DNA from: a virus
Strand: one strand, 5' to 3'
IMG/VR virus record: IMGVR_UViG_3300017963_003073
Coordinates: 1 to 39,974 of that record
Length of the DNA: 39,974 nt
The stretch's first letter is position 1. Each line of letters begins with the position of its first letter. Both the position numbers and the translations under genes were made by a program. Shown here in pieces: positions 108 through 39,053 of this stretch. The notes below the pieces were generated by a model. The model ran no database searches. It saw only the letters and a list, made by a program, of their open reading frames with translations, and was not told where the DNA came from.

Positions 108-952
108 ATCGGCAAGGGTGGTTTGGCTGGACGGTTGTGCGCCATGGTAGTGACACATCCGGGAATTATCAACACCGGGGCCGGAAGGGCAAGAAGGGCG
201 GATCTTTGCCGGGTGGGGGCCATGGGGCCATCGGGATCGGGGTAGACCTGTCAGAGCAAGATCGGCGCAAGGCAGTCCAGGAGTACCGCCAAAAGCAACG
301 GGACAAGAAAACGGCAAAGCACCCAGTGGCCGGAACGTTGGAAGAGGCCAAGAAACAAAGCATTGGCCGCCAAGAGATTATCAATCACATTGTGGCCACG
401 AACCCCCCGAAGCAGGTCAAGAGCGGCAAGGTGACGGCGGAAGAGTGGGCCAAAGAATACATGAGCGATAGCGATCAAGAATTCGCTTTGGTGCAGGTGC
501 ATCCAGAAGCCATGCACTTTCCGGCTGAAGTGGACTTGCCCAAGGTGGGCGCTTACGCTCAACAGACCGGCCAACCGCCGCCGATCGTGGTGGATAGCAA
601 CCAAAAGATGGAAGCCAGGTTTGGGGGCGGCAAGCTAGAACGGGCCTATGGCCGCCAACCCCACACCGTGATCGACGGCAAGCACCGGGCAAAGGCCGCC
701 CTGGAGCAGGGGGCCAGTAGTATCCGGGCCTATGTGCCAAAAGGGAAACTTGGCGAAATATGGCAAAGATCACACGAGATCGAGCGTTCCAAGTTTGCCC
801 GAGAGTATCTAAAGAAGAAGGGCTTCCCTTTGCTGGAAGAAACTGGAGCCGGGTGGAAGGTGGACCGGCAAGGGCAAGAACGGACCTATACCCCCCGAGA
901 TATAGAGCGGATCGCAAGGAATACAGGCCATGAATGGACGTGGGGACAATAG
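104..952 (+). CDS. Tagged ParB-like domain protein
   Basis: This is a 282-residue protein. Residues about 1-45 carry the Gly/Lys-rich tag shared with four other proteins here (SGNYQHRGRKGKKGGS), preceded by a short W-F-G-W segment. The C-terminal half resembles a ParB/sulfiredoxin-like fold: a PPIVVDS strand at about 155-165, then VIDGKHRAKAALEQGA at about 193-208, the usual 'GxHR..A' signature. ParB-like domains bind nucleotides or DNA, and some act as nucleases or kinases; which applies here is unknown. The ATG overlaps the preceding TGA, and the end overlaps the next gene by 23 nt. The tag suggests a role shared with the other tagged proteins, perhaps carriage in the virion (inference). 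Confidence 0.75.
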   Translation: MNRQGWFGWTVVRHGSDTSGNYQHRGRKGKKGGSLPGGGHGAIGIGVDLSEQDRRKAVQEYRQKQRDKKTAKHPVAGTLEEAKKQSIGRQEIINHIVATNPPKQVKSGKVTAEEWAKEYMSDSDQEFALVQVHPEAMHFPAEVDLPKVGAYAQQTGQPPPIVVDSNQKMEARFGGGKLERAYGRQPHTVIDGKHRAKAALEQGASSIRAYVPKGKLGEIWQRSHEIERSKFAREYLKKKGFPLLEETGAGWKVDRQGQERTYTPRDIERIARNTGHEWTWGQ

Positions 953-2060
953 AGCGGCTTGGTTTTGGGGGCTTGTAGACAAGGGCTCCGGCAAGTCTGG
1001 AAACTATGGCCACAAAGGTCGGAAGGGTAAACGTGGGGGATCCGCTCCAGGTGGGGGCCACGGGGCGATCGGCATTGCCGCCGATGCTACACCGGAAGAG
1101 ATCCAAACGACTATAGATCGGCTCCGGGCCGCCAGGGCCAAAAAGAAGCCCAAGGAACCGGCCACGGGGGCCAGTGTCCAGGAAAACCTTGCTTGGCTCC
1201 AGGCGCAAGGGTATAGTGTTGCGTGCATGTCCAAAGAGGATATTATCAATGCAGAAGTGGAAGCCTTCAAGCAGGGCAACACTTACAAGTGGTCTACACA
1301 ACGCGATCTTGAGGATATGCGATCCGAACTGAAGCGGACATTCCCACGGGAGCAACTTAGACAGTGGGCGGAAGAAGGGGTGGAAATGGAAGAGATCCGG
1401 GATCGGATCAACGAGTGGACCGATGAACAGCTTGAAGCACGGCGGGATGAAGTTGGGTCCAGAATTCTTGATCAAGTCCGGCGCGTGCGAGAAGATCACT
1501 ATAGCGACTTTGATCCGGCCATCCAAAACGAGAACGATCTAAATGTGCTCATGACTGGCATGGTGGAAGCCCACAAGCGGGGCGATATTGGGCCGGATGC
1601 TACGTATGTTTTGCGGAACCAAAAGCCAGGCAGTAGGGAAGAGAGCTTGGGCGGCCAATATCTAGATGGCCAAGTAACTCTTTTCAATGGAAACTATGCC
1701 GAACTTGGGATCATGAATGCGCAAGGCGAATATGTAAGAAACACGGGCTACTATAGCACTAGGCCACTAGAAGCCGGGATCAGTAGTGCGCCCTATGCCT
1801 ATAGCAAGTTCTTCCATGGTGTAGTCACGCATGAATATGGCCATCACTTGGCTCACAAAGATACATCCATAGAAGAGCGGGCAAGATTTGCACTTGGGCG
1901 GTATGGTGAAGACATCAAAACGACGCTTACCGACTATGCTTATACGAACCAGGCCGAAGCGGCGGCGGAAGCCTACACACTGAAGCGGCACCCGGATTTT
2001 CAAAGCCTACCATCGGCCACTCAACAGATCGTGAATTACATTCTGGGAAGCGGGGAATAA
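930..2060 (+). CDS. Tagged zincin-like metallopeptidase
   Basis: This is a 376-residue protein. It starts with the Gly-rich tag (SGNYGHKGRKGKRGGS, residues about 23-38) and continues as a long charged helical region. Near residue 300 it reads VVTHEYGHHLAH, a classic HExxH zinc site. About 35-40 residues later comes an E-rich helix (NQAEAAAEAY) that could supply the third ligand. That arrangement fits a gluzincin-type peptidase domain of the kind found in phage head-associated proteins. The ATG at 930 lies inside the end of the previous gene, and the TAA shares a base with the next ATG (TAATG). Peptidase activity is inferred from the motif only. Targets could be virion proteins or host envelope and cytosolic proteins. 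Confidence 0.72.
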   Translation: MNGRGDNRAAWFWGLVDKGSGKSGNYGHKGRKGKRGGSAPGGGHGAIGIAADATPEEIQTTIDRLRAARAKKKPKEPATGASVQENLAWLQAQGYSVACMSKEDIINAEVEAFKQGNTYKWSTQRDLEDMRSELKRTFPREQLRQWAEEGVEMEEIRDRINEWTDEQLEARRDEVGSRILDQVRRVREDHYSDFDPAIQNENDLNVLMTGMVEAHKRGDIGPDATYVLRNQKPGSREESLGGQYLDGQVTLFNGNYAELGIMNAQGEYVRNTGYYSTRPLEAGISSAPYAYSKFFHGVVTHEYGHHLAHKDTSIEERARFALGRYGEDIKTTLTDYAYTNQAEAAAEAYTLKRHPDFQSLPSATQQIVNYILGSGE

Positions 2061-2257
2061 TGACCACTTTGCTTTTAAGCCGACAATGCCAGGGATGCAA
2101 GCGGCTCCAAGAGCCTGAAGATGAACGGTGGACGTGTGAAGCGTTCCCAAAGGGCATTCCAAAGGCGATCATGATGGAAGTGCACGATCATGCTTTGCCT
2201 TTTGAAGGGGATAACGGCTTGCTATTTGAGCCAAAGGAAGAGGACGGTGGAAAGTAG
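2060..2257 (+). CDS. Small Cys-containing conserved phage protein
   Basis: This is a 65-residue protein with a CxxC pair at residues 10-13, a third Cys in WTCEAFPKGIP, and a conserved HDHALPFEGDNG segment. The pattern C-C-...-C-x-AFPxGIP...DHxxPxxGDxG is one I associate with small proteins beside phage portal genes. The Cys/His content suggests metal binding. Its function is unknown. It follows the zincin gene with a TAATG overlap, and a diverged paralog follows the second zincin at 3245, so zincin plus small Cys protein behaves as a duplicated two-gene unit. Its end overlaps the GTG start of the next gene by 11 nt. Confidence 0.72.
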   Translation: MTTLLLSRQCQGCKRLQEPEDERWTCEAFPKGIPKAIMMEVHDHALPFEGDNGLLFEPKEEDGGK

Positions 2258-3248
2258 AGCCGGTTGGTTTGGCTGGACAATCGTGGACCGTGGCGGGCCA
2301 GGTTCTGGTAACTGGGGCCACAAGGGGCGCAAGGGGCAACGGGGTGGATCGTTGGCCAAGTCGGGCGGGGCCGCCTTTGCCCTGTACAAGTACCTGAAGA
2401 AAAAGAAGGCCGCATTATCAACACCCGCCGCCAAGGCCGTGATCGATGGGATCAAGGCCCAGAAGCCGGATGCCACGGATCGAGATATAGATATGTATCT
2501 CGGGGTCATGGAGATGGATAAAGAAAAGTTCGACTATTACGGCCAAAAGTTGGGCTTGGACGTGGATAAACTCCGGGATCCGTTCTTTGCTGAGATGGGG
2601 GAAGCGGAAAAGACCATGGAACGGCTCAAGATGCAGGTGCAGGACAATGCAACCTACCAATGGACCGGCACGAGCGGCAAAAAGTTTGTGGCCATCAATC
2701 AAGAAACGCCAGGCGATCTATATGAGAAGGTGGAAGGGAAGGTGGGGGCCACTTCAGCCGATACGATCGAGACACTGAAGGGCCAGGGAATCAAGGTCAG
2801 TGTGCAAGGAAACGTGCCGGAAGAGCGGTTGCACCGGGAGTTGTCGCAATTATCAAACTTGCTCCAAGAAAAGCCAATGCTACAAAAGATCTTTGCGGCT
2901 CAAGGGGGCCGGGTAGAATACCGGGAAAGGCCAGAATACAAGCCCACGGCGGCGGCTTCTTGGGATCATGACAAGATCGTGGTATGGCACAAAGAAGGCG
3001 ATTACCCCAACTTTCCCAACGTGTGGGCGCATGAGATTGGCCACGCACTGGAGAAAACCACCACGGTTACAGAAACATCAAAAATCTTTGGGAAGGGCCG
3101 CCACGTGAGTGCCTATGCTTGGACTAACTTCCAAGAAGACTTTGCGGAAACATTCACAAGTGTGATCTTTGGGGACAAGAAGGCCATGGACTTTGCAGGA
3201 CCAGAGAAGACAGGCTTTATCAATGACCTACTGGCAGGTGTGCAATGA
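2247..3248 (+). CDS. Tagged zincin-like metallopeptidase, second copy (GTG start)
   Basis: I place the start at the GTG at 2247. It is preceded by AAGGAAGAGG, and from there the N terminus (ESRAGWFGWTIVDRGG) aligns with the tagged gene at 104. A start further upstream would add unrelated residues. The 333-residue product has the tag GSGNWGHKGRKGQRGGS, a Lys-rich helical middle, and VWAHEIGHALEKT near residue 260, an HExxH zinc site. NFQEDFAETF about 35 residues later is a candidate third-ligand helix. It is the same architecture as the gene at 930 but strongly diverged, so an ancient duplication is likely. Function is inferred from the motif. Confidence 0.72.
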   Translation: MESRAGWFGWTIVDRGGPGSGNWGHKGRKGQRGGSLAKSGGAAFALYKYLKKKKAALSTPAAKAVIDGIKAQKPDATDRDIDMYLGVMEMDKEKFDYYGQKLGLDVDKLRDPFFAEMGEAEKTMERLKMQVQDNATYQWTGTSGKKFVAINQETPGDLYEKVEGKVGATSADTIETLKGQGIKVSVQGNVPEERLHRELSQLSNLLQEKPMLQKIFAAQGGRVEYRERPEYKPTAAASWDHDKIVVWHKEGDYPNFPNVWAHEIGHALEKTTTVTETSKIFGKGRHVSAYAWTNFQEDFAETFTSVIFGDKKAMDFAGPEKTGFINDLLAGVQ

Positions 3249-3442
3249 CCACGCCCACAATTATCCCATGCCAAGAACGGCGGTGCCGATGGCTCCGAGA
3301 TCCAAAAGGGCCACTAGATGATCCGGTTTTTGTATGTTACGCATTCCCAACCGGGATCCCGCAAGAGATCCTAGACGGCAAAAACGATCACACGGAACCC
3401 TATCCAGGGGATGACGGCTTTTTGTACCAGGCTGAAGAGTAA
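3245..3442 (+). CDS. Small Cys-containing conserved phage protein, paralog
   Basis: This is a 65-residue paralog of the protein at 2060. It keeps the first Cys pair in altered spacing (CQERRC), the VCYAFPTGIPQEI segment and the DHTEPYPGDDG segment. The ATG overlaps the TGA of the preceding zincin (ATGA). Its last 43 nt overlap the 3' end of the reverse-strand gene 3400-3720. Function is unknown; the conserved Cys and Asp/His residues suggest a metal or structural site. Confidence 0.72.
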   Translation: MTTPTIIPCQERRCRWLRDPKGPLDDPVFVCYAFPTGIPQEILDGKNDHTEPYPGDDGFLYQAEE

Positions 3443-3720
3443 TAGGCGATTGATCGGCGCATTTCTTCTAACCATTCTTTGGCATTGACCTGGACGCCGG
3501 TGCGATCGAGTGAGTTGGCCACGATGAACATGCCATACAAGCTTTGGATCACGGATTCAATTTGATCGGTGGGATGCAGGGCCAGGGCCGGGCCGATTTC
3601 TCGGGCAAGGCGCATGTTGCGATCTTTGCGCTTGTCTGCTACATTGGGGAAATAAAAAAAGTGCGCCCCCGGTGTCTTGAGTGCTTCACGCATTTGGGTT
3701 ATGTATTCAGATAGTTGCAT
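3400..3720 (-). CDS. Reverse-strand helical protein of unknown function
   Basis: This is a 106-residue protein with no recognisable motif. It reads as largely alpha-helical (for example AREIGPALALHPTDQIESVIQSLYGMF). It is the only reverse gene within the first 35 kb. A good Shine-Dalgarno (AGAAGGGAG) sits before the ATG, and a promoter lies just upstream. An isolated gene with its own promoter inside an oppositely oriented late operon looks like a moron, an accessory gene expressed independently, sometimes from a prophage. That role is inference. It ends by running 43 nt into the converging gene at 3245. Confidence 0.65.
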   Translation of the reverse strand: MQLSEYITQMREALKTPGAHFFYFPNVADKRKDRNMRLAREIGPALALHPTDQIESVIQSLYGMFIVANSLDRTGVQVNAKEWLEEMRRSIAYYSSAWYKKPSSPG

Positions 3721-3742
3721 GTGTGCTCCCTTCTACACGGGA

Positions 3743-3770
3743 ATTATACCATAAAATGGACAAAGGTAAA
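3743..3770 (-). promoter_or_regulatory. Promoter for the reverse gene at 3400-3720
   Basis: On the reverse strand a perfect -10 TATAAT (3748-3743) lies 16 nt from a weak -35 TTTACC (3770-3765). The predicted transcript would begin close to 3736, 15 nt before the ATG. The promoter overlaps the ribosome-binding site of the portal gene on the other strand. Confidence 0.6.
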
Positions 3771-3773
3771 ACT

Positions 3774-6011: not shown

Positions 6012-6021
6012 AGGGGTAACT

Positions 6022-6324
6022 ATGCCGTATCCAAACGAGCACGCCGCCAGGATCAACGATCCGGGCAAGTACAAGCGAATACGCCGGGTCAATGACAAGT
6101 TTGGACCGGGTATCCATGCCATCTTTGGCTTTATGGCCACGCAACGGGAAGGTGGTGGGGAACTGCAAGCGATCCGCTTTGATCGGACAAAGTACACGCC
6201 AAAGCAAGCCCGGAAGTGGCTCCGGGAACATGATTACAAGGCTATGCTGGAAGAGGCAACAAAACCAAAGGCCGCATTGGTCAAGAAGTCGGCTTGGTTT
6301 CAAGGGTGGCATGTAACCCAGTAA
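6022..6324 (+). CDS. Conserved phage head-region protein (PNEHAARINDP family)
   Basis: The ATG at 6022 has AAAGGGG 7 nt upstream and gives 100 residues. An in-frame start at 5938 would lie inside the portal gene. The MPYPNEHAARINDPGKY...GIHAIFGF...LQAIRFDRTKYTPKQARKWLREHDY pattern is one I recognise from many phage genomes, alone or beside proteases and capsid genes. Its molecular role is not known to me. It follows the portal-MuF stop by 10 nt, in the same operon. Confidence 0.75.
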   Translation: MPYPNEHAARINDPGKYKRIRRVNDKFGPGIHAIFGFMATQREGGGELQAIRFDRTKYTPKQARKWLREHDYKAMLEEATKPKAALVKKSAWFQGWHVTQ

Positions 6325-6338
6325 AGGATTATCAATCA

Positions 6339-7430: not shown

Positions 7431-7461
7431 CCACCCTACCGGATCGGTATAGCCGATAACG

Positions 7462-7517: not shown

Positions 7518-8096
7518 ATGCAATATGGCAGGGCCATGGTGGCATTCTTTTTGCCCCCACACGCAAGTGAACAACTAGACTCATTCAAGGAGCATTTTCC
7601 GCCAGGCTCTGAGGTAACACCAATACAGGATTATCATATCACTTTGGCCTATATGCCAGAGGTCAAGGACAAAGAGCTTTTGCGGGAAGTGGTCCGGGGT
7701 TTTGCACAGAACGAGCACCCCGTATCCGGACAAATAGGCGGGATCGGGCGTTTTGCCCACGATGAAAAGGGCACAAACCCATTTTATACGTCTTTTGATG
7801 CGCCGGTACTGCCAGGCTTCCGCCAAAGGCTAGTAAAGAAGCTTGGCCAATACGGTTTCACAGTTTCAAAGTTGCACGGGTTTATTCCACATTGCACCAT
7901 GGCCTACATCCCGGCCAACACTCACAACCCGGCGCTTGTTGTCCCTTACATCGGGGTGACCTTTGATTGTGTTTGGTTGGCGTGTGATGACGATCGGGAA
8001 AGATTTTCATTACTTGCCACTGAAACACAGCTAAAAAAAAGACTTGGAAGCGGGGCCAATGCCCTAAAGCAGGTACTTAGCCATGCCAATGCCTAA
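7518..8096 (+). CDS. 2H phosphoesterase (2'-5' RNA ligase-like)
   Basis: The ATG at 7518 with GGAGCAGG upstream gives 192 residues. Two HxT motifs define the 2H superfamily: DYHITLAY (residue about 39) and PHCTMAY (residue about 124). The surrounding strands are typical of the duplicated fold. Family members open 2',3'-cyclic phosphates or cleave 2'-5' linkages. Some phage 2H enzymes (Acb1 type) destroy cyclic-oligonucleotide signals of CBASS immunity; others are RNA-repair or NAD-related. Which applies cannot be told from sequence. Its position just after a terminator suggests partly independent expression, and its end overlaps the next gene by 14 nt. Confidence 0.8.
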   Translation: MQYGRAMVAFFLPPHASEQLDSFKEHFPPGSEVTPIQDYHITLAYMPEVKDKELLREVVRGFAQNEHPVSGQIGGIGRFAHDEKGTNPFYTSFDAPVLPGFRQRLVKKLGQYGFTVSKLHGFIPHCTMAYIPANTHNPALVVPYIGVTFDCVWLACDDDRERFSLLATETQLKKRLGSGANALKQVLSHANA

Positions 8097-13619: not shown

Positions 13620-14258
13620 ATGTTTGTGGCTTATGGCCAGAAGGCGATCCAGTGCTTCTATGATTGTGCGGACTCGCTCCGAGTGCATCACCCGGACATG
13701 CCTATAGTGGTGATCGGGGATCAATCGATCAACTTCCCAAACTGCATGTGCCTACAGGAGCCAAGTACCGATATCGGAGCCAGGAGCATCAAGACTCAGA
13801 TTTGGCGGTATGTGCCCGATGGTTGGACATATGCGCTATACATGGACGTTGACACGCTTGTGTTGAAACCGCTAGATCGCTTCTTGCAACCACTGCTTGA
13901 CGGTTGGGAACTGGTTATGGTCCGGGATGAATTGGCGGATGTAGTGGATCGGTGCCGACTCAAGAACAATGAAGAAAAGCAACACATCAAGAATGCCTTT
14001 GGCACCGGCGAACTAACCCAGTTTGCGGGCGGTTTGTTTTCTTGGCGCATATGTCCAACAGTGCAACGATTCTTTGAGACTTGGCATGCAGAGTGGGGCC
14101 GTTTCAGCTTCCGAGATCAAGGGGCTTTGGTGCGGGCTTTGGCGCTTACACCGGTCAAGCTTTGGCCACTCGGGTGGGCGGCCAATGCTTCCAATAGAGA
14201 GCATGCCCTTGAAGTGTGGCATATACATGGCAAGGCCAGAATGGCAGGTGCACAATGA
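13620..14258 (+). CDS. Glycosyltransferase, GT-A fold with DxD motif
   Basis: The ATG at 13620 follows the previous stop by 10 nt and gives 212 residues; a longer in-frame start overlaps the upstream gene. YALYMDVDTLVLKPLDRF (residues about 71-88) has the DxD metal/nucleotide-sugar motif. It is followed by FAGGLFSWRICP and FRDQGALVRAL, matching the layout of GT8-like or related GT-A enzymes. It sits directly beside a GT4 enzyme and two further modifying enzymes downstream, so these genes probably build one modification together. The TGA overlaps the next ATG. Confidence 0.72.
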   Translation: MFVAYGQKAIQCFYDCADSLRVHHPDMPIVVIGDQSINFPNCMCLQEPSTDIGARSIKTQIWRYVPDGWTYALYMDVDTLVLKPLDRFLQPLLDGWELVMVRDELADVVDRCRLKNNEEKQHIKNAFGTGELTQFAGGLFSWRICPTVQRFFETWHAEWGRFSFRDQGALVRALALTPVKLWPLGWAANASNREHALEVWHIHGKARMAGAQ

Positions 14259-15280
14259 CGGCTTGGCTACAAGCATGGATTATCAATCAAGATCCGGTTG
14301 CCCAGTTGGCCACGGCCGAAAAGGGCGGGCCAGGCTCTGGGAACTGGGGTCATGCAGGTGTGAAAGGCCAAAAGGGTGGATCGGCTCCCAAGTCCGGCAT
14401 GGGTGCGGCCATGTCTTTGCGTACCGGCAAGGATTGGGAAGATCGCCAGATGAAGGCCATAGAGGACGCTTACTTGGCCGATGCTGAAGAGAATTCCAAG
14501 AGGCTTTATCAATCTTCCGTCCAGTCTGGGCTTTTGAAGGACAAAAAGCAAAAGATGGATACCCTGAAGAGCTACAAAGCACTCAAAGAACTAGATCGGC
14601 ATAGCATGTATGAGCCGATGGATGACTATCCGGCTATGGCGGAAGCCCTTACCTATACCACTAGCCATGGCAGTTTGAAACAAGCAAGGGCCAACTTCCA
14701 AGAAACGGCGGATCTGATGGCAGATCCGAATAAAGAAGAATGGGAGTGGAAGGTGCACCGGGTGGATGCCATTACACGGGCCAGGGGTGAACGAGTGCCG
14801 GGCTTGAAAGAAAAGGCCAAGCCCAAACCCAAACCGGTCGAAACGGCCAAACCATCCGGGCCGGAAGCAAAGAAGATCTTGGAAGCCAAACGGGTCACAG
14901 ATGACTATTACATAAACCGCCCAGTGAGCCGGAGAACGATCGGGGGTGGGGTTACCCAAGAGTGGCAGAAGGTCAAGGCCAAACCGGTCAAAGTGGCGGG
15001 CTATGAGGATCAAGACTTCTTTATTCACCGGCCACTTGGTGAAGGGAAGAGCGGTTGGACTATCTCAGAAGGCCGCACTGGTACATCCCTTATTGTGCAA
15101 TACGGCGGCACCCAAAGAGAAGCTATAAGGAAGCTGACAAACACACTGGACAAAATAAAGAGTGCAGGGCGGACCACGCTCCAGAACCAGATCACTAGTG
15201 CCGTGAATCAGAGCGTAAGCAGGGGCGATCCTTTGCGATCGCCACGATACGGCGGCACAGGAAGAGAGTACAAGGGGTGA
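14255..15280 (+). CDS. Tagged paralog A with shared C-terminal domain
   Basis: The ATG at 14255 overlaps the preceding TGA; the product is 341 residues. The N terminus MTAWLQAWIINQDPV leads into the tag GGPGSGNWGHAGVKGQKGGS. A helical variable middle follows (residues about 60-200), then a Lys/Pro linker (EKAKPKPKPVETAKP). The C-terminal domain of about 110 residues reads VTDDYYINRPV ... EWQKVKAKPVKVAGYEDQDFFIHRPL ... GWTISEGRTG and is shared with the next gene. I do not recognise the domain. It resembles small beta domains attached to large polyvalent phage proteins. The same N-terminal tag occurs on the zincins at the left end. Confidence 0.65.
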   Translation: MTAWLQAWIINQDPVAQLATAEKGGPGSGNWGHAGVKGQKGGSAPKSGMGAAMSLRTGKDWEDRQMKAIEDAYLADAEENSKRLYQSSVQSGLLKDKKQKMDTLKSYKALKELDRHSMYEPMDDYPAMAEALTYTTSHGSLKQARANFQETADLMADPNKEEWEWKVHRVDAITRARGERVPGLKEKAKPKPKPVETAKPSGPEAKKILEAKRVTDDYYINRPVSRRTIGGGVTQEWQKVKAKPVKVAGYEDQDFFIHRPLGEGKSGWTISEGRTGTSLIVQYGGTQREAIRKLTNTLDKIKSAGRTTLQNQITSAVNQSVSRGDPLRSPRYGGTGREYKG

Positions 15281-15284
15281 AGCG

Positions 15285-32999: not shown

Positions 33000-33015
33000 A
33001 TACTCGGAATTTTGG

Positions 33016-33046
33016 GCGATCCTATTATGGGATCGCTCTTTTTTTT
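33016..33046 (+). terminator. Rho-independent terminator ending the structural operon
   Basis: GCGATCC (33016-33022) pairs with GGATCGC (33030-33036) around a 7-nt loop, followed by eight Ts. It lies 16 nt after the fibre stop and directly before the promoter of the ribbon-helix-helix/ATPase operon. Confidence 0.85.
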
Positions 33047-33051
33047 GTGTC

Positions 33052-33080
33052 TTGCAATGACGGTATAGATATGGTATAAT
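33052..33080 (+). promoter_or_regulatory. Promoter of the RHH-FtsK operon
   Basis: TTGCAA (33052-33057), a 17-nt spacer and a perfect TATAAT (33075-33080) follow the terminator. The predicted start near 33087 leaves a leader of fewer than 20 nt before the ribosome site AAAGG. This makes 33.1-35.2 kb a separately controlled unit. Confidence 0.75.
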
Positions 33081-33103
33081 TGAGGTATTGGAAAGGTATG
33101 TTT

Positions 33104-33322
33104 ATGACAGAGAAAAAAGTCAAGACTAGCTTCACCTTGAGCCAAACGGGTAAGGGGTTGCTGGAACAACTATCCGAGTGGTACGGGATCAGCATGTCCG
33201 CCGTTGTAGAAATGTTGGCACGAAAAGCGGCAAGAGCGGAAGGCTTGCTTCCCGGTGCGACTATCCAGCTAGAAGGGACCGATCATGAACGGGATCGGGG
33301 TATGGCTGAACGCCCTTTATAG
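33104..33322 (+). CDS. Ribbon-helix-helix DNA-binding protein
   Basis: Of the ATGs at 33098 and 33104, the second has AAAGG at the better distance (7 nt) and gives 72 residues. KVKTSFTLSQTGKGLLEQLSEWYGISMSAVVEMLARKAARAEG matches the CopG/Arc/MetJ fold: one strand, then two helices with GIS at the turn. Such proteins bind DNA as dimers and often repress their own operon or mark a DNA site for a motor. As first gene before an FtsK-like ATPase it could be the operon regulator or a DNA-site adaptor. The gene overlaps the ATPase gene by 38 nt. Confidence 0.7.
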   Translation: MTEKKVKTSFTLSQTGKGLLEQLSEWYGISMSAVVEMLARKAARAEGLLPGATIQLEGTDHERDRGMAERPL

Positions 33323-34574
33323 GGTGTTGACACTAGAGAAGGGCATCTTTTTCAATCTCGTGGGACGGCGGCGGGGGCTCCGAACCTACCTCATGCAAAT
33401 TCACCTACCAAACACGGCGGACTTGCAAAAGGTGCTAAAGCTGGATGAAGCTTTAGCTATGGCCATGGGGGTTGAGCATGTCCGAGTGGCCAGGAACAAA
33501 GCACTTGTTGACATAGATGTACCGCTCCCAGAATCGGAATGGAGATCCGTCAAGTTGAGCCAAGTATTATCAAACCGGGCGGAACGGCTGACCTTGGGCC
33601 ACGACTCGGGCGGCCAGGTGGTCAAGATGGATCTACAATCGCCACTTTGCGCCAACGTGCTCTTTGCCGGTATGCCAGGCAGTGGCAAGACTTTTTCAAT
33701 GATTGGCCTTGTCTTCCAGTGTGCCGTTATGTATGATCCACAAGACCTTCAGATCATCTTGATCGACTTCAAAAACGATCGGGCGTGGCAACCGCTCCAC
33801 ATGTTGCCCCACTTGGCACACCCACCCGTGAAGACTGAGCAGGAAGCCCGCCAGGTTCTGGAGTGGGTCCGAGATCAACGGCTGGAGCGTATCCAGTACA
33901 ATGGCCAAAGGCAGTTTCCACGGCTTCTTGTCGTGATCGATGAAATAGCAAGCTTGATCATGCACGCCGGAAAAGAAGGCCCGTTGGCAAAGTTGATCGG
34001 TGAAAGCACCGGCCAGGGCCGGGCACTGGGGATCAATTTGTTTCTGGGCACCCAACAGCCCAACCAAAAGACCATGGGAGCCTTTACCAATGCAGATATG
34101 CACGTGCGGATCGTGGGCCGGGTAACCAATGCCGACTATGCCGCCCACGCCACGGGCCGCCCCCAGACCGGGGCGGAACACCTTTGTGGTAAGGGTGACA
34201 TGTTGGCCTTCTTTGGGAGCGATATCCGGCACATCACAACGCTATACCTGGATCGGGACGCTCTAAAGCAGTTGCCTAAGAAGATCGAGCCCAAACCACT
34301 TTTGCTTCCGGCTTCCACCGTGGTCATGCCCGGCCAAAGCGGCCACGATACGGCAAAGATCTACAGTCCAGAAGTGATCGAAAAGACAGCTTTGGCCCTT
34401 TACTGGTTTTTTAAGTGGGGCAAAAGGCCCACGGCCAATTCTTTGCAATCGGAGCGGCACGGCTCCATGACCAACAGCCGGATCGCCAGGAACACGGCAC
34501 TAGACATTATCAATCAGTGGCCGGAACCGGCTGAAATCTTTGTGCGGAAGCTTATGGAAGGTAGAGAAATATGA
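33285..34574 (+). CDS. FtsK/HerA-family DNA-translocating ATPase
   Basis: This is a 429-residue protein. Walker A GMPGSGKT is at about 129-136, followed by IDFKNDRAWQPLHMLPHL, which is typical of FtsK/SpoIIIE motors. Walker B LLVVIDE is at about 214-220, and STGQGRALGINLFLGTQQPNQKTM is the arginine-finger/sensor region. The last 60 residues (WFFKWGKRPTANSLQSERHGSMTNSRIARNTALDI) look like a winged-helix DNA-binding domain, the place where FtsK carries its sequence-reading gamma domain. There are no obvious transmembrane helices; the downstream partner has them. It is probably a hexameric dsDNA pump for conjugation-like transfer, segregation or packaging. Its role in this phage is unknown. Confidence 0.85.
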   Translation: MNGIGVWLNALYRVLTLEKGIFFNLVGRRRGLRTYLMQIHLPNTADLQKVLKLDEALAMAMGVEHVRVARNKALVDIDVPLPESEWRSVKLSQVLSNRAERLTLGHDSGGQVVKMDLQSPLCANVLFAGMPGSGKTFSMIGLVFQCAVMYDPQDLQIILIDFKNDRAWQPLHMLPHLAHPPVKTEQEARQVLEWVRDQRLERIQYNGQRQFPRLLVVIDEIASLIMHAGKEGPLAKLIGESTGQGRALGINLFLGTQQPNQKTMGAFTNADMHVRIVGRVTNADYAAHATGRPQTGAEHLCGKGDMLAFFGSDIRHITTLYLDRDALKQLPKKIEPKPLLLPASTVVMPGQSGHDTAKIYSPEVIEKTALALYWFFKWGKRPTANSLQSERHGSMTNSRIARNTALDIINQWPEPAEIFVRKLMEGREI

Positions 34575-35026
34575 AGAAATTGCGCTTTTTTGGTATAGTC
34601 CTATCGCTTGCCTTGATCGGCGGATGCGTAACACTTGGGGGTTTTGTCGGCTTTGAGGTCATAAACAACCCCGAGATGCGCATGCTTTTGAAGGTATCCG
34701 CTTACTTGCTTGTAGCTTTGGCCTTGATCGGGGCCGTGCTCTTGTTTCTCATGGGCGTGATCTTGGTCATCGGCAAGGGCTTGGGGTTGAGCCAGGGGGA
34801 CACAAAGGCGGCGCTCCAGGCGGCTATTGCTTTGGCCAGGAGTTCAAACACGATCAACAAGCTTTATGGACGGATCCCACGTGGCCTTTTGCCGCCAGGA
34901 CAGGCCCAACCGCCGCCCGGTTATTATCATTGGCCAGTGAGTGCCATGGATGATGGCCCGATCGATGGCCATGCAACCACCCACGCCAGCACAGAGCGGG
35001 CCAATGCTGAAGCTTGGGAGCGGTAA
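34571..35026 (+). CDS. Two-helix membrane protein with lipobox-like N terminus
   Basis: This is a 151-residue protein whose ATG overlaps the ATPase stop (ATGA). MKKLRFFGIVLSLALIGGCVTLGG has a lipobox-like LIGGC with Cys near residue 19. A second hydrophobic segment (LLKVSAYLLVALALIGAVLLFLMGVILVIG, about 38-67) spans the membrane, followed by a Pro-rich, soluble C terminus. The tight coupling to an FtsK-like motor without its own membrane anchor suggests it is the membrane partner of that motor (inference). Confidence 0.65.
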   Translation: MKKLRFFGIVLSLALIGGCVTLGGFVGFEVINNPEMRMLLKVSAYLLVALALIGAVLLFLMGVILVIGKGLGLSQGDTKAALQAAIALARSSNTINKLYGRIPRGLLPPGQAQPPPGYYHWPVSAMDDGPIDGHATTHASTERANAEAWER

Positions 35027-35028
35027 CC

Positions 35029-35238
35029 ATGGATGTTTGGGTGGGCCATGCAGGGCTCAAACAGTGGCGGATCCAGAACCTGGAAGATCCGCCACAACCG
35101 CCCGAGTTATGGCAAGAAGTCATGATCCACTTTTACATTGACCACAAAGAGAAACCAATACCGGGCTATGTGAGCCGGATCATTGACCAAGAATGGTTTG
35201 TGGTCCGGGCCGGGAAACGACAAAAGCCCACCCTTTGA
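35029..35238 (+). CDS. Small hypothetical protein, last gene of the ATPase operon
   Basis: The ATG at 35029 gives 69 residues (MDVWVGHAGLKQWRIQ ... GYVSRIIDQEWFVVRAGKRQ), probably one small beta domain. It is not recognised. The TGA lies in the loop of the terminator at 35221-35252. Confidence 0.5.
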   Translation: MDVWVGHAGLKQWRIQNLEDPPQPPELWQEVMIHFYIDHKEKPIPGYVSRIIDQEWFVVRAGKRQKPTL

Positions 35239-35252
35239 GCGGTGGGCTTTTG
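35221..35252. terminator. Bidirectional terminator between converging operons
   Basis: A perfect 12-bp stem (CAAAAGCCCACC, GGTGGGCTTTTG) with an 8-nt loop. The A-run and T-run on the two arms allow function on both strands, ending the + ATPase operon and the reverse gene at 35269. Confidence 0.8.
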
Positions 35253-35268
35253 GGTTGGAGCAGGATTA

Positions 35269-36675
35269 TCAATCAGCCGCCAAGAGCACTTTCCCGTGCC
35301 GGATCATGCTTGGCTCTTCCCCGCCTTGCAAAAGGCCGATCCCATCCTGGAGCAGATCCCACGCATCTTCTAACTCTTCCACGGCATTGGTCAAAGCTTG
35401 GCTTCTGTACTTCTCAGGAATGCACCCTTGCAGGATGGCCAGGGCCGCCTTGATCACCCCTTGATCGTCTTCCAGTTGGGCCAGGGCCGGGCACTCGTTT
35501 GTGCTCCGGTGCAGGTGCTTGATCGCTTGCATTGTGGCCACTTCACGCCCCACGGGCAAAGTTATATCTGTGGCATCCGTTCTTGAATGCGTGTCCACGG
35601 TCACCGTTGCAAAGGTGTGGCCATTATGCTTCAAGTGCACCCGATCCGTTCTAAACGTTTCATCCCGATAGCCGCCAACATCCTCTTGAAACTTTTTCAA
35701 TAGCTCCAGGCGCTTGATCCCTCTTCTTTTGATCGTTTCACAGGCGATCATCCGCTCCGGATACAGCTTCAGGTACTGAGGCAAAAACCGGCGCTCTATG
35801 TCTCGAAGCACGGCGGCGGGCTCCCGGTCCAAGGAAAAGTTCATGGTGGGCTTGTCTTGATCGGCTGGATCAAAGAGATATCCGCCACGGTGGAAGTCAT
35901 CCGTTAGGCGGGGCCACTTGCCGGACACTTTGACCTTGGGCTTGTTGTTCATGTAAAAGTGAATGCCATAGCCGTCCACGTGCAAGATATCGCAATTTGA
36001 CCACTCGGGGTTGCCGGTATAGGTCCAGTCCGCACCCATCAAGTGGGCCACGTGCTTGCCCATCCAATGCAGGGCCGGTGTTTTTTCAATCGGGCGGGGG
36101 CCAATGTCCAACGCTTTGGGCTCCGGCTCCGGGGTGGGCTCTGGATCGACAAGGGCGGCTTCCGCCGCCTCTTGCTCTTCCGGGTATTCTGTCATAGCTT
36201 CCAGCACCTCAGTGAACCAACGATGTAGGGGCTCCTGGGTAGTCAAGTCCAAGACAAAAGAATAATCCCCATCGTAGCCCTGGATGGCCGGAGCATCCCA
36301 ACCATACTTTTCCTTGCCAGCTATAGCCGCCGCTTCAATCAAGGCTTTTGAGTGCTTCCGGATTAGGGAAGGGGAGCGGCCAAAGCACACTTCTTCCGCA
36401 CCTTCCGGCACCGGGGCATCTTTTTGCGCAAAAACCACACTGCCATCCGCCAGAATCCAAGAGTGGGAATAATGGGTGCGCTCCCATTGGCCATCATACT
36501 GGGAACCCGTAAAGGGGGCCAGCAGGTGCTTAACTTGGGCCTTACTTGGGCCATCGGACCAAACAACCCGCATGCCGCTCTTGCTTGTCACTGAAAACTT
36601 GGTGCCGGGATAATTGGCCTTCAAAAGCTTACGAACCATCTTTGCCGCTTCAACCGTTCCAATGTGCCTTGTCAT
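35269..36675 (-). CDS. Large protein with LPD29-type N-terminal domain
   Basis: The ATG at 36675 has GGAG about 10 nt upstream; an ATG five codons earlier lacks a site. The product is 468 residues. Residues about 1-75 (IGTVEAAKMVRKLLKANYPGTKFSVTSKSGMRVVWSDGPSKAQVKHLLAPFTGSQYDG) match what I know of large polyvalent-protein-associated domain 29, found in phage and plasmid multi-domain proteins. A Pro/Glu linker (PEPTPEPEPKAL) separates it from an unrecognised C-terminal half with VHLKHNGHTFATVTV. LPD proteins are often early, anti-defence or takeover factors; that is inference here. Confidence 0.65.
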   Translation of the reverse strand: MTRHIGTVEAAKMVRKLLKANYPGTKFSVTSKSGMRVVWSDGPSKAQVKHLLAPFTGSQYDGQWERTHYSHSWILADGSVVFAQKDAPVPEGAEEVCFGRSPSLIRKHSKALIEAAAIAGKEKYGWDAPAIQGYDGDYSFVLDLTTQEPLHRWFTEVLEAMTEYPEEQEAAEAALVDPEPTPEPEPKALDIGPRPIEKTPALHWMGKHVAHLMGADWTYTGNPEWSNCDILHVDGYGIHFYMNNKPKVKVSGKWPRLTDDFHRGGYLFDPADQDKPTMNFSLDREPAAVLRDIERRFLPQYLKLYPERMIACETIKRRGIKRLELLKKFQEDVGGYRDETFRTDRVHLKHNGHTFATVTVDTHSRTDATDITLPVGREVATMQAIKHLHRSTNECPALAQLEDDQGVIKAALAILQGCIPEKYRSQALTNAVEELEDAWDLLQDGIGLLQGGEEPSMIRHGKVLLAAD

Positions 36676-36735
36676 CGTATCTTGCTCCATTCTATACTTG
36701 GGCCGCCACGTTGGCCGCCCCTCAACTTCAGCTAT

Positions 36736-36791
36736 AGTGTATCATGGAAAAAGCGCCAGATCCTGACCTGAACCTGACACTTATCCAGACA
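36736..36791 (-). promoter_or_regulatory. Reverse promoter A with three TGTCAGG-like repeats
   Basis: On the reverse strand, TGTCTGG, TGTCAGG and GGTCAGG (36791-36762) lie 12 and 11 bp apart. They are followed by 20 bp and a -10 TACACT (36741-36736), then TGAAGTTGAG. Spacing is identical to promoter B at 38057. Repeats one helical turn apart with no -35 suggest an activator bound on one DNA face. It drives the gene ending at 35269. Confidence 0.65.
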
Positions 36792-36802
36792 GCCACTAGA
36801 TT

Positions 36803-37237
36803 TTAGTCCCAGTCTAGCCGCACCGACTCCGGCCAAAGGCCATCTTCTTGCTTCTCGTGCCACGTGGTATTTTCAATGGTCGGCTCTTTGGTCGTATCCA
36901 TCCAACCCCGCCGCACCGTGGCTTCTTGGTGAAACGTGGCTTCTGCCAACACTGTGGGAGCCAGTACCCGAACCACGCTTATGGTCACGGCTTTGGTACT
37001 CAGGTCTTCCGCCACATCGGCAAACACCGCTTCTAGGTCACACATTATCATTCCTTCCTGATTGTCTGGGAGCCGCCGCCACTGGGTGGACGTGCGCCCA
37101 CCGATGCGATCGGCTATTTCGCCATCAATCTTTTCGATCTCGTACTCTTCCCGATCCTTCAGGACCGGGGCTTTTGGATCATCGGACAGGGCAAAAAACA
37201 CCCTTGGATCATCCCTCAAAACTGCGATCTTTAACAT
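36803..37237 (-). CDS. Hypothetical protein, reverse operon
   Basis: The ATG at 37237 has GAAGGAAGC upstream and gives 144 residues (MLKIAVLRDDPRVFFALSDDPKAPVLKDREEYEIEKID). It appears alpha/beta, and no family is recognised. It begins 12 nt after the stop of the gene at 37249, so the two form an operon driven by promoter B. Confidence 0.6.
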   Translation of the reverse strand: MLKIAVLRDDPRVFFALSDDPKAPVLKDREEYEIEKIDGEIADRIGGRTSTQWRRLPDNQEGMIMCDLEAVFADVAEDLSTKAVTISVVRVLAPTVLAEATFHQEATVRRGWMDTTKEPTIENTTWHEKQEDGLWPESVRLDWD

Positions 37238-37248
37238 TTTGCTTCCTT

Positions 37249-37716
37249 CTAGCCCAGAACCGGGCAAAAGTGGAACTTTTTCATGAGCGTTTTGGACGCC
37301 GGTACCACTTCACCGTTGCGGAAAAAGCCGCCATTCCGCCTTATGCAATCCTCAACCCCGCCACTATTCAGGCTCTGGGGCTTGCGCTCGTGGATAAAAA
37401 GATAGGTCTTGTCAAACATGACATAAAAGGTTACGTACTTTTTGGGGTTGGCCTTCGACCACTGCATAACCGTGGCCATCAAATCCGTTTCATTGTCGAT
37501 ATGATGGAAAACGATTTCTTGCACCCCCGCCTTATTCAGGCGATCCGCTTCGTACTGGGCTACTCTTTTGGTCGTGTAGATGTACACAAGACCACTGCCA
37601 ACCAAAACGTGGTCCAACTCATTGACCACCGCCCAACCACGCCCACTTTTGACGTATTGCTTGCCATCGTTGGCCGTGTAAACTTCCCCACCGTGAAACT
37701 TTTTAACTGAAAACAT
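37249..37716 (-). CDS. Hypothetical protein, first gene of a reverse operon
   Basis: The ATG at 37716 (AAAGGACAAGC upstream) gives 155 residues. The N terminus MFSVKKFHGGEVYTANDGKQYVKSGRGWAVVNELDHVLVGSGLVYIYTTKRVAQYEADRLNKAG looks like a compact beta-plus-helix domain, and the C terminus contains a single CIRRNGGFFRNGE motif. Not recognised. It is preceded by a leader of over 300 nt. Confidence 0.6.
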   Translation of the reverse strand: MFSVKKFHGGEVYTANDGKQYVKSGRGWAVVNELDHVLVGSGLVYIYTTKRVAQYEADRLNKAGVQEIVFHHIDNETDLMATVMQWSKANPKKYVTFYVMFDKTYLFIHERKPQSLNSGGVEDCIRRNGGFFRNGEVVPASKTLMKKFHFCPVLG

Positions 37717-38056
37717 TGCTTGTCCTTTGTCTGGGTTATGCAAACTTGGAGCCAATTTGTTCCGCTTGTCGCTTTTGGCTTGTCCCTAGCTATGACACTT
37801 TGGGCCGGACGTTATCCGTTTTACAAGTCACGCTGTCAGTTGCGCGTGTGGCTCCAAGTTTGCCAGTTGTTTACCTGGATTGAATTGTGGGGCCGCAAGT
37901 CGCCCGGCGCTTTCTACGCTTGTACCCACCCCTATCAACTATGAGACTTTGAGATATGTATCTCTCGCTCATTTTGGACCTATGTTTCAAGGTGCCCGAA
38001 GGGGACTCTCCGGGTCCAGGTATTTTGTTGTTAACTCTTCCCTCAACTTCATACCC
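37717..38056 (-). ncRNA. Long structured 5' leader or noncoding region
   Basis: Between promoter B and the gene at 37716 lie about 340 nt with no credible gene on either strand. It holds a 15-bp perfect inverted repeat (GCAAACTTGGAGCCA at 37740-37754, complement at 37849-37863, 94 bp apart), whose inner arm lies next to the ribosome site. It also holds a GAGATA/TATCTC palindrome (37951-37964) and a GGACC...GGTCC hairpin region (about 37976-38018). It could be a regulatory leader, an origin or an operator cluster; the RNA class is not recognised. Confidence 0.4.
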
Positions 38057-38112
38057 AGTATAGCAGATCTGAAGCATAGTTTCCTGACATGAAGCTGACA
38101 GTTTACCAGACA
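38057..38112 (-). promoter_or_regulatory. Reverse promoter B with three TGTCAGG-like repeats
   Basis: On the reverse strand TGTCTGG, TGTCAGC and TGTCAGG (38112-38083), spaced 12 and 11 bp apart, are followed by 20 bp and a -10 TATACT (38062-38057), then 5 bp and TGAAGTTGAG. The arrangement is the same as promoter A base for base in spacing. It drives 37716 to 36803 through a long leader. Confidence 0.7.
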
Positions 38113-38116
38113 AAGT

Positions 38117-38143
38117 AAAATCCCCTGATTAACAGGGGATTTT
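38117..38143. terminator. Bidirectional terminator
   Basis: AAAATCCCCTG and CAGGGGATTTT form an 11-bp stem with loop ATTAA; A/T-runs on both sides allow use in either direction. It ends the reverse operon whose last gene stops at 38189. Confidence 0.8.
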
Positions 38144-38145
38144 AT

Positions 38146-38187
38146 TCCTTGCATTGCCAAGCAGAGCCTTGTCGTACCTTGCCTCTG
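38146..38187. repeat. Short degenerate period-5 repeat tract
   Basis: CCTTG CATTG CCAAG CAGAG CCTTG TCGTA CCTTG CCTCT: eight pentamers of the same type as the 200-nt tract at 39058. It lies between the stop of the gene at 38189 and the terminator. Confidence 0.6.
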
Positions 38188-38188
38188 A

Positions 38189-38773
38189 CTAATTCCAACT
38201 TTCAACAACAAATTTGCCAAAAACACCCCGGTATGTACCCAGACCAATAGCCAAACCACCACGAGCAAAAGCCGTTTTTAGCAATGTTTCGTCAACTTCA
38301 TCATTCTTGAATAGGCTGATTGTAAACTCCAAATTCCATGGCAATTCAACCACGGGGCGTTCTTTGGGATTTGGAATGCCTTTTGCTAATCGAGCAACAC
38401 GCCGATCCACATAGATATTAGCCCCTTCATCCCGATCGTCTTTGAATCCAGTCAACACAATCGGATTATCATTCCTCATTAGTGGAATGTTCGTTGGTGC
38501 AATCATCACAAAGCCCAATAGCGCATTGGCTAATGCGCTGTAAGATCGCCCCCCGATCAGCTTGGCCACTGATGTCGAATTCTTGGCGCTCAGAAATGAA
38601 GATATGTTGGCAGCCGGGATACAAAGCTGTTTTGTTCCCGGAAGAAAGTACATCTTGTCTTCCACGGGCAATTGTGTTTTGTTGTCTCCAGCATACCGAT
38701 CGAACATAATCGGTGTAATACCTTTCAGCTTCACCGTTCGTTCTATAATATCCGGCAATCCTAGCCTTGTCAT
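38189..38773 (-). CDS. Phage protein reminiscent of Cas7/RAMP folds
   Basis: This is a 194-residue protein with AGAAGGGAT before its ATG. The N terminus VKLKGITPIMFDRYAGD and C terminus ARGGLAIGLGTYRGVFGKFVVESW match a widespread phage group that begins 'GTxPLxM' and ends 'GLGxYRxxxGxF'. The Gly-rich end recalls the loop of RAMP/Cas7 RRM domains, which bind RNA or single-stranded DNA. No cas genes surround it. A role in nucleic-acid binding during replication or counter-defence is possible but unproven. It overlaps the GIY-YIG gene by 305 nt. Confidence 0.5.
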   Translation of the reverse strand: MTRLGLPDIIERTVKLKGITPIMFDRYAGDNKTQLPVEDKMYFLPGTKQLCIPAANISSFLSAKNSTSVAKLIGGRSYSALANALLGFVMIAPTNIPLMRNDNPIVLTGFKDDRDEGANIYVDRRVARLAKGIPNPKERPVVELPWNLEFTISLFKNDEVDETLLKTAFARGGLAIGLGTYRGVFGKFVVESWN

Positions 38774-39053
38774 TCTTTTTTATCCCTTCTAAAACGAATT
38801 GATCTAATACTGACGGCTCAATGTCAAACCATTCTTTACCACCGCCAGGTATACGGTAACCGCTCAAAACACGATGAAACCAAGTCTCAAGTTTATGTTC
38901 CTTTCCGTCACTACATTCTATCTTGCAATATATTATCAATAGGGCAGAATTGCCAGTTTGCAAAGCAGAAACACGAATGCTAACTTGCTGACTGGTTTTG
39001 CCGATCTTGAATTTGTTCGATTGCCCTTCTTGTAGAATGTAGACAAATCCCAT
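38469..39053 (-). CDS. GIY-YIG (T5orf172/MUG113-like) nuclease domain protein with overprinted tail
   Basis: This is a 194-residue reading frame. Residues 1-92 are a GIY-YIG domain of the T5orf172 type: GFVYILQEGQSNKFKIGKTSQQVSIRVSALQTGN (the YIL...KIG core with an Arg in RVSALQ), then HKLETWFHRVL with the catalytic-type Glu, and GKEWFDI. The remaining 100 residues have no domain character and are fully overlapped by the gene at 38189, suggesting a lost stop codon or a frameshift after the domain. The promoter is at 39388 and the ATG follows a 200-nt repeat tract. Confidence 0.65.
   Translation of the reverse strand: MGFVYILQEGQSNKFKIGKTSQQVSIRVSALQTGNSALLIIYCKIECSDGKEHKLETWFHRVLSGYRIPGGGKEWFDIEPSVLDQFVLEGIKKNDKARIAGYYRTNGEAERYYTDYVRSVCWRQQNTIARGRQDVLSSGNKTALYPGCQHIFISERQEFDISGQADRGAILQRISQCAIGLCDDCTNEHSTNEE

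Follow-up and report, generated by a model that had tools for sequence, protein, structure and literature searches.

The TTATCA array

The window analyzed here, a DNA stretch of 39,974 nucleotides (IMG/VR record IMGVR_UViG_3300017963_003073), is part of the genome of an uncultured tailed phage. Its + strand carries the gene of a 429-aa FtsK/SpoIIIE-like DNA translocase (33285–34574; Pfam PF01580, E=2.6e-20) and, from 166 to 38938, 53 copies of the hexamer TTATCA, none of which has a counterpart in reverse orientation (53/0 forward/reverse). Direct counting bore out the 46 TTATCAA copies on the + strand and none on the − strand that a first-pass annotation had reported by eye, and a count of all 7-mers places TTATCAA as the most frequent in the window. 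The copies start at 166, 378, 1243, 2415, 2850, 3217, 4159, 5146, 5513, 5957, 6329, 7153, 8986, 10975, 11314, 13327, 14280, 14506, 15307, 15533, 16377, 17513, 17707, 18880, 19627, 20867, 22697, 22859, 23612, 24015, 24524, 24927, 25310, 26142, 27134, 27868, 28758, 29588, 30715, 30869, 31164, 32323, 33567, 34507, 35266, and 38933. Seven further TTATCAT sites listed in that annotation are likewise all on the + strand (7/0), at 7631, 10200, 19305, 21243, 34924, 37045, and 38466; only the position given there as 19304 needed correction, to 19305.

A second form of the motif, [AT]TTTTCA[AT], occurs 16 times between 1996 and 37284, again on the + strand alone (16/0), with starts at 1996, 4356, 8003, 10044, 13479, 16550, 18516, 21772, 25800, 29171, 33348, 33692, 35693, 36082, 36869, and 37277. 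TTTTCA avoids the vicinity of TTATCA, and no close same-strand pairs, 10–40 bp apart, are present. The extended motif WTTWTCAW is found 68/0 in the window, about one per 590 bp, and 172/1 in a 100-kb relative (G001). The array is one-directional, unevenly filled, and quasi-periodic, with the consensus [AT]TT[AT]TCA[AT] and neighboring sites commonly separated by about 400 or 800 bp. The WTTTTCAW form, the clustering of gaps near 400 and 800 bp, and the further one-way words described below do not appear in the first-pass annotation, which also makes no mention of the precedents in T7 (EcoP15I) and in nicked phages such as tf.

Selection on the motif as DNA

The enrichment of TTATCAA survives shuffling of the window with codons preserved: 200 shuffles gave a mean of 13.1 copies (range 7–19) against the 46 present, an excess of about 3.5-fold, and not the 40 or so that the first-pass annotation had considered fatal to its proposal. 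Its own expectation of 2.4 copies, that of a random 7-mer, underestimates what this coding sequence would yield, while the codon null is conservative because the shuffles retain the codons used by the motif itself. Only 1.2 copies of the reverse 7-mer, TTGATAA, are expected under the codon null, and therefore its absence from the window says little by itself; the shorter TGATAA is seen 0 times against 4.5 expected in the window and twice against 15.7 in the relative.

By our own ORF calls, 46 of the 53 TTATCA sites lie within genes. As had been claimed, all three codon phases are used (11, 19, and 14 sites in + strand genes); two other sites fall in − strand genes and seven in no called gene of at least 140 aa. 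TTA, suspected earlier of being rare, is the rarest leucine codon of the + strand genes, and 11 of its 51 occurrences there belong to TTATCA. The orientation of the motif is indifferent to the direction of the genes, TTATCA being present at 16/0 and 3/0 in mostly leftward gene blocks. One such block, 35270–39974, holds TTATCA at 3/0 and WTTWTCAW at 7/0; the sites at this end of the array (35266–38939) start at 35266, 37045, 38466, and 38933 with orientation unchanged, and the first of them overlaps the end of a leftward ORF (35269–36690).

The codon shuffles and the constant orientation across mostly leftward genes rule out a codon or peptide preference, in agreement with the earlier argument, and identify TTATCA as a motif that is selected at the level of DNA, polar by strand, and independent of reading frame. 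Base skew is ruled out as the cause, since GC skew flips sign with gene direction and the motif does not. Stoperators of the mycobacteriophage L5 type follow transcription in their orientation and lie mainly between genes; this candidate was rejected on the unchanged orientation in mostly leftward blocks and on the location of 46 of the 53 sites inside called genes. Because their single orientation is maintained by selection whatever the reading frame or gene direction, the sites very probably constitute a functional oriented array, selected to act as DNA for an orientation-sensitive reader.

A one-strand replication signal, such as primase starts where a single strand is the lagging-strand template along the whole molecule, would mark one strand throughout, as expected for unidirectional replication. 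Such a signal does not, however, predict avoidance of the reverse word, the base skew tracks gene direction rather than the marked strand, and Pfam searches of 76 ORFs of the relative, a contig that may be incomplete, matched no family of primases, helicases, or DNA polymerases. We consider this explanation distinctly unlikely.

Conservation in a related phage

Searches of viral contigs returned only five records, G001 to G005; genome contig searches found no relative, and one conserved structural protein had no match in a phage collection. The window, G002, G003, and G005 represent one phage (99.8–100% identity). G004 carries GAACTG at 2/1 and [ACG]GCCAG at 9/2. The 100-kb relative is G001, with a tape measure protein 61% identical to that of the window. 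Its TTATCA count, of the kind the first-pass annotation had proposed for related phages, is 149/2, and no polarity switch occurs in its 100 kb, in a record that is classed as linear and may be incomplete. The likeness to DNA uptake sequences suggested earlier is not supported: those are found in either orientation and frequently in inverted pairs, whereas the window lacks reverse copies altogether, which leaves no such pair, and in G001 only 2 of 151 TTATCA copies are reversed.

Conservation was assessed for the 37 of 53 TTATCA sites that align without gaps; 31 of these are conserved in the relative against 15.8 expected, as are 13 of the 16 alignable TTTTCA sites, while GGGTCA is conserved at only 5 of 10. 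Some conservation is also seen for two words without polarity, GATCAA (P 0.004) and GATCGG (P 0.028). In all, 42 sites are common to the window and the relative by descent, a mapping that is ambiguous across tandem copies at 14216–16307.

Spacing of the sites

The fairly even spacing noted in the first-pass annotation is real: the coefficient of variation of TTATCA gaps in the window is 0.59 against 0.97 ± 0.13 for random positions, the lowest among 162 six-mers of similar count, although among 236 in the relative it ranks only fourth from the bottom. Gap lengths are concentrated around 400 and 800 bp and scarce at 500–700 bp, a pattern that is strong in the relative and weaker in the window alone; one of the counts behind it dropped gaps below 200 bp (TTATCA gaps kept: 49 of 52 in the window, 140 of 148 in the relative; WTTWTCAW gaps kept: 58 of 67 and 159 of 171). 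Within the window the periodicity is modest (P=0.03 and P=0.037 in two tests; fifth among 162 six-mers), and a jitter test on WTTWTCAW there prefers 195 bp (P=0.013). The tests on the two genomes are not independent because of the 42 sites shared by descent. The clustered gap length is similar along the whole relative, and phase memory wanes after about six steps. Empty lattice points showed no hidden weak sites: the motif matrix scored 48 mid-gap windows no higher than 96 antiphase windows (P=0.82). A search for an alternative word at these points yielded weak candidates only, and no convincing partner word was found at a constant distance from the motif.

These observations are compatible with a one-directional lattice with a repeat of about 400 bp, with vacancies and with phase kept over several steps, running across genes in every frame. 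Such a lattice could serve as a physical ruler for a processive one-strand DNA machine, be it a pump, a nickase, or a replication machine, a reading that we regard as plausible if somewhat short of probable. A ~400-bp repeat, if real, calls for a DNA machine of matching step or range. No precedent or counterpart for the spacing or the array was found among the papers listed in open-access literature searches, and we know of no description of a double-stranded DNA phage genome marked by such a lattice.

The clustered gaps are addressed directly by a different proposal, in which the sites give order to phage DNA, whether packaged or inside the cell, through a protein that binds every ~400 bp and builds a regular series of contacts or loops; DNA loops most readily over lengths of a few hundred bp. 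Simple anchoring, however, needs no single orientation, the similar gap length along the whole relative is contrary to spool turns of changing radius, and the fading of phase memory after about six steps, together with long gaps devoid of weak copies, also speaks against it. We judge a role in DNA organization unlikely.

Other one-way words and restriction evasion

TTATCA is not the only one-way word in this phage. [ACG]GCCAG occurs 101/0 in the window (613–39214, + strand; first copy at 613, last at 39209) and 232/2 in the relative, above the codon null. GGGTC occurs 34/0 (1455–39944, + strand; first copy at 1455, last at 39940) and 77/0, its reverse, GACCC, being absent. Both words may be separate from the TTATCA system. 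When polarity and enrichment are ranked together, TTATCA is surpassed by GCCAGG words in the window and in the relative alike, and the top seven in the window include TATCAA and not TTATCA itself. A GCCAGG spacing near 220 bp differed from random positions in some runs (P 0.01–0.03; 0.15 in the relative in one run) but did not hold up against the jitter null in either phage (P 0.14 and 0.22).

A single orientation is what evasion of Type III (or Type ISP) restriction alone would produce, since these enzymes cut only inverted site pairs. A published account (PMC3874151) describes T7, with 36 EcoP15 sites in one orientation, as escaping, and T3, with sites in both orientations, as not escaping. 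Our counts reproduced the T7 figure (36/0), and TTATCA resembles these EcoP15I sites in lying in one orientation with no reverse copies. GGGTC carries exactly the T7/EcoP15I signature, reverse sites lost and forward sites not gained: the forward word is not enriched (111 against 124 expected under the codon null) and the reverse is missing (0 against 88 expected). TTATCAA does not follow this pattern. Codon shuffles leave T7 CTGCTG unenriched (36 observed against 25.6, range 15–41), unlike TTATCAA with its 46 copies against 13.1 (range 7–19), and evasion predicts neither the conservation of sites (31 of 37 for TTATCA against 5 of 10 for GGGTCA) nor clustered gaps, whereas TTATCA is conserved and unusually evenly spaced. 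Type III evasion may thus explain GGGTC but not TTATCA, for which we consider it very unlikely as the sole cause. A mild doubt comes from T7, in which CAACAG (23/0 against 10.6/8.9 expected) is likewise both one-way and enriched, though more weakly.

Nick sites and a DNA motor as candidate mechanisms

Chromosome pumps and nicked phages already provide examples of strand-polar words. The leading mechanisms for TTATCA are of these two kinds: loading sites for a DNA motor and localized nick sites as in T5 and tf. Both leave the ~400-bp spacing unexplained.

By analogy with T5, phiKMV-like phages, and tf, a phage nickase might cut packaged DNA in one strand wherever the motif occurs. Copies on the opposite strand would then be absent because they would create double-strand breaks, and very close copies would be few because short pieces would be released. 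We know of no nickase that has been identified in T5, phiKMV-like, or tf phages. All 14 nick sites of tf, TACTRTGMC, are in its top strand, even in regions whose genes have the opposite direction, and a blind polarity scan of tf ranks ACTGTG, which lies inside the nick consensus, first (23/1). The sequence signature of the nick word is thus of the same kind as that of TTATCA; the codon-shuffle polarity scan, having found part of this word unaided, could be applied to all phage genomes. Like the tf sites, TTATCA is a one-strand word above the codon null that allows substitution at one or two positions, occupies similar places in the relative (31 of 37 alignable sites identical), and keeps to its strand whatever the gene direction. 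In the published report on these phages, related phages keep nick sites at similar places on one strand, and the function of the nicks is given as unknown (PMC3517423). HNH endonuclease families are encoded by our relative and a T5orf172-domain protein by the window, but such nuclease genes are common in phages. The tf signal is also much less pronounced and its sites are far fewer, 14 in 46 kb against 53 TTATCA and 16 WTTTTCAW copies of a different word in 40 kb, and its nick positions show no regular spacing, unlike the clustered gaps seen here. Nicking is a possible but rather doubtful explanation.

The reading that we favor, tentatively and at less than even odds, is that the orientation-sensitive reader is the phage's own FtsK/SpoIIIE-like motor (33285–34574), loaded one way at the sites. 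In its favor, an enriched one-way array and an ATPase of this family are encoded by the same genome. The motor would bind the sites through a C-terminal helix-turn-helix-like domain and, loaded facing one way, would drive phage DNA one way, in the manner of FtsK at KOPS; a site in reverse would load the motor in the wrong direction and be selected out. The motor is about 89–90% identical in the relative, against 61% for the tape measure protein, and gives a weak match to the alpha domain (E=0.042) and no Pfam match to the gamma domain. Its C-terminal 81 residues are predicted to adopt a helix-turn-helix-like fold (pLDDT 79), although modeling of the full-length protein failed (pLDDT 37.5). The structures that align with this C-terminal fold include the FtsK gamma domain (2j5o at rank 13 with Z 5.1, and 2ve9, bound to KOPS, with Z 3.8). 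The fold is not distinctive: 12 other entries rank higher, and Foldseek returned no match at E<=0.001. To our knowledge, no target word is known for any phage FtsK-like protein, and no word comparable to TTATCA was present in the scanned portions of three other phages with such proteins, amounting to 100 of 111 kb for Bobby, 50 of 147 kb for SIOphi, and 50 of 80 kb for TS-12.

The comparison with KOPS and Chi drawn in the first-pass annotation stands in part: orientation, enrichment, and the phage ATPase support it, while the lack of a switch in 100 kb of the relative and of anything comparable in the scanned parts of the three FtsK-encoding phages does not. TTATCAA is oriented and over-represented like Chi, which is recognized by the host's RecBCD or AddAB enzyme. 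KOPS, SRS, and TraB sites are, like the present motif, asymmetric and about 8 bp long, and TTATCA shares with the KOPS and SRS of FtsK and SpoIIIE an enriched word in one orientation with a motor of the same family in the same genome. KOPS orientation reverses at the dif/terminus point and its polarity is less strict; the array in the window, by contrast, is far denser, near-absolute in polarity, and clustered in its gaps near 400 and 800 bp, and in G001 it continues through 100 kb with no switch. With a dense, conserved, evenly spaced one-way word and an FtsK-like gene in one genome, the reader can be sought directly.

A one-way word beyond codon choice

The first-pass annotation had reported TTATCAA on one strand only, and a recount of the window agrees: 46 copies lie on the + strand and none on the − strand, together with the seven same-strand copies of TTATCAT that it had also claimed (7/0; pairs are forward/reverse copies throughout). 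TTATCA as a whole totals 53/0, preceded by A or T in 52 of 53 copies and followed by A or T in all 53, giving [AT]TTATCA[AT], with little further signal beyond the adjoining A/T; ATTATCAAT is a frequent extended form (19/0). The annotation had further argued that peptide or codon preference cannot explain the word. This was upheld by 200 synonymous shuffles preserving the protein and codon usage of every gene: the window's 46 copies compare with a shuffle mean of 13.1 (range 7–19), and the 117 in G001, a related IMG/VR contig, with 47.1 (35–57), so neither peptide nor codon choice accounts for the count. The two 6-mers most enriched by shuffle score, in the window and G001 alike, are TTATCA and GCCAGG. 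Six copies of TTATCA end 0–3 bp from a called start codon (window 8986, 27134 and 31164; G001 41772, 68861 and 70949).

The phage and its relatives

The 39,974-base virus record represents a tailed phage, judging by its genes for an FtsK/SpoIIIE-like ATPase, for tape measure and T5orf172-domain proteins and, as a marginal match (E=6.4e-4), for a portal-like protein. A phage collection searched with its first 20 kb gave no near match, and scans of genome_contigs found no relatives. G001 (100,482 bases) shares 86.7% DNA identity with the window across 23.7 kb, G004 is a third lineage (75–81% in aligned parts), and the window's own phage recurs as G002, G003 and G005 (99.8–100%), placing it in further IMG/VR samples (L026, L027 and L029–L030) and extending it upstream by ~17.7 kb. 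Genes for a terminase, two DNA methyltransferases, HNH endonucleases and an actin-like (ALP/MreB-type) protein are present in G001. Pfam scans of 76 of its ORFs yielded no match to a replication polymerase, helicase or primase, so G001 may be incomplete. The combination of its actin-like protein (L013:4249-5292) and FtsK-like motor (L016:13394-14686) would be in keeping with a plasmid-like prophage.

Orientation and conservation of the sites

TTATCA stays one-way in the related contigs (G001 149/2, G002 18/0, G003 15/0, G004 7/0, G005 36/0). A test for a polarity switch at an origin or terminus had been proposed earlier; across 100 kb of G001 no switch was found. In mostly leftward gene blocks the orientation is unchanged (16/0 in G001 75377-86300, 3/0 in window 35270-39974), while GC skew flips sign within them, so that orientation follows the genome strand rather than transcription or composition.

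Another form of the site, TTTTCA, is depleted near TTATCA (of its 80 copies, 26 lie no more than 230 bp away, where 46 would be expected) and is polar when flanked on both sides by A/T (16/0 in the window, 36/1 in G001). The joint consensus WTTWTCAW (W, A or T) counts 68/0 and 172/1. Of the window's TTATCA sites, 37 align without gaps, and G001 keeps 31 of these unchanged; nearby same-frame positions predict 15.8, and none of 5000 draws gave more than 26. TTTTCA (13/16, P=0.0016) and GCCAGG (33/55, P=0.013) are also conserved, as to some extent are the non-polar words GATCAA (P=0.004) and GATCGG (P=0.028); GGGTCA (5/10) shows no excess. With both site forms pooled over the mapped parts, 42 sites are common, nine window-only and seven relative-only. 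Three of the nine fall near the midpoint of 741–802-bp gaps in G001 (435/367, 373/368 and 341/455 bp), placement is mixed among the other six and among the seven relative-only sites, and some losses are paired with gains ~70–220 bp away. These few cases hint, from alignment, that selection may act on spacing rather than on exact places.

Spacing

Gaps between TTATCA copies are unevenly distributed, with 65 of 148 at 300–500 bp, 10 at 500–700 bp and 33 at 700–1000 bp in G001, and 16, 1 and 15 of 52 in the window. Gaps of at least 200 bp were scored for their fit to multiples of a single period, with gamma-distributed gaps as the null (3000 draws), and the best periods were 400–420 bp. No draw matched the observed score in G001, for TTATCA or WTTWTCAW; the window gave P=0.003 for TTATCA and 0/3000 for WTTWTCAW. 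TTATCA is the most periodic of 236 similarly frequent six-mers in G001 (7.5 at 400 bp; best non-overlapping word 4.1) and has the fourth-lowest gap variation; among 162 in the window it ranks fifth and first on these two measures, in keeping with the fairly even spacing first noted there. Against a local-jitter null the periodicity is clear in G001 (0/300) and marginal in the window (P=0.037), where the same test for WTTWTCAW favours 195 bp. Phase memory is lost after about six steps, median gaps in G001 are 412 bp (0–20 kb) and 430 bp (76–100 kb) with 842 and 735 bp between these regions, and a search for weak motif copies at empty lattice points found none. An organising lattice is an unlikely function of the sites, ranked third among the mechanisms considered.

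Other one-way words and control phages

Several one-way words coexist in this genome, and regular spacing is clear by the jitter test only for TTATCA in G001. Over both phages GCCAG counts 416/17 against a codon null of 257/140, with 15 of the 17 reverse copies being TGCCAG. [ACG]GCCAG is a second positive signal, enriched and one-way (101/0 in the window, 232/2 in G001); TGCCAG tolerates reverse copies. CAGGTG, GGGGCC and GAACTG have zero reverse copies in either phage. The mostly leftward blocks hold no reverse copy of these three words, GCCAG or GGGTC, GAACTG having no copy at all in the window block.

GGGTC counts 111/0 over both phages against 124/88 expected; on the + strand GACCC is absent from the window and G001, against shuffle predictions of 21 and 66, and GGGTC frequency is normal. 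This loss of the reverse without enrichment of the forward is the signature of the EcoP15I word in T7 (36/0; 36 against 25.6, range 15–41), whose one-way layout is reported to fit escape from this Type III enzyme (PMC3874151). TTATCA, in contrast, departs from that signature, and restriction evasion alone is the least probable of five mechanisms. T7 contains, in addition, the word CAACAG (23/0), which is one-way and enriched but weaker.

In phage tf the same scan ranks ACTGTG first (23/1), a word contained in the nick consensus TACTRTGMC (14/0); 14 nicks, every one in the top strand, are reported for this phage (PMC3517423). Localized nicks at the TTATCA sites are accordingly a possible reading, ranked second.

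The candidate motor

The sites very probably constitute a functional, oriented DNA array. Tentatively placed first among mechanisms is that they would load the phage's FtsK/SpoIIIE-like motor (window 33285-34574, +) one way. Its motor-domain match is strong and its alpha-domain match weak; AlphaFold gave an unusable model of the entire protein (pLDDT 37.5) and a helix-turn-helix-like C-terminal domain (pLDDT 79), which aligns with FtsK gamma (Z 5.1, rank 13) among many other DNA-binding domains. A comparable word is absent from Mycobacterium phage Bobby and Microcystis phage Mvi-JY20 (1–100 kb each) and from Bacillus phage SIOphi and Stenotrophomonas phage TS-12 (1–50 kb each); three of these four (Bobby, SIOphi and TS-12) have genes for FtsK-like proteins, and possession of one is therefore not enough to predict a polar word. 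Neither motor loading nor localized nicks accounts for the 400-bp repeat. Service as priming sites is improbable, standing fourth, after the lattice.

Additional sequence features

GATC is ~three-fold above base-composition expectation (window 457 against 154, G001 1121 against 387) and TGGCCA ~five-fold (58 against 10.5, 134 against 25.7); these two words are palindromes. CTAG falls below half of expectation in both phages, and G001 has a Dam-family methyltransferase match. L013:10507-18557 of G001 is a tandem series of related ORFs (~365–414 aa) with 85–87-aa ORFs between several; the four scanned all match phrog_33618 and minor-head families, and an HExxH-like motif is present in the four translated. 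Two adjoining related ORFs at window 14216-16307 share 147 of 320 aligned residues, with TTATCAA near each start (14280, 15307) between identical flanks. A predicted protein of G001 (L014:2647-3675) contains PDRFDLSYYPC three times consecutively, with A replacing P before the first copy.
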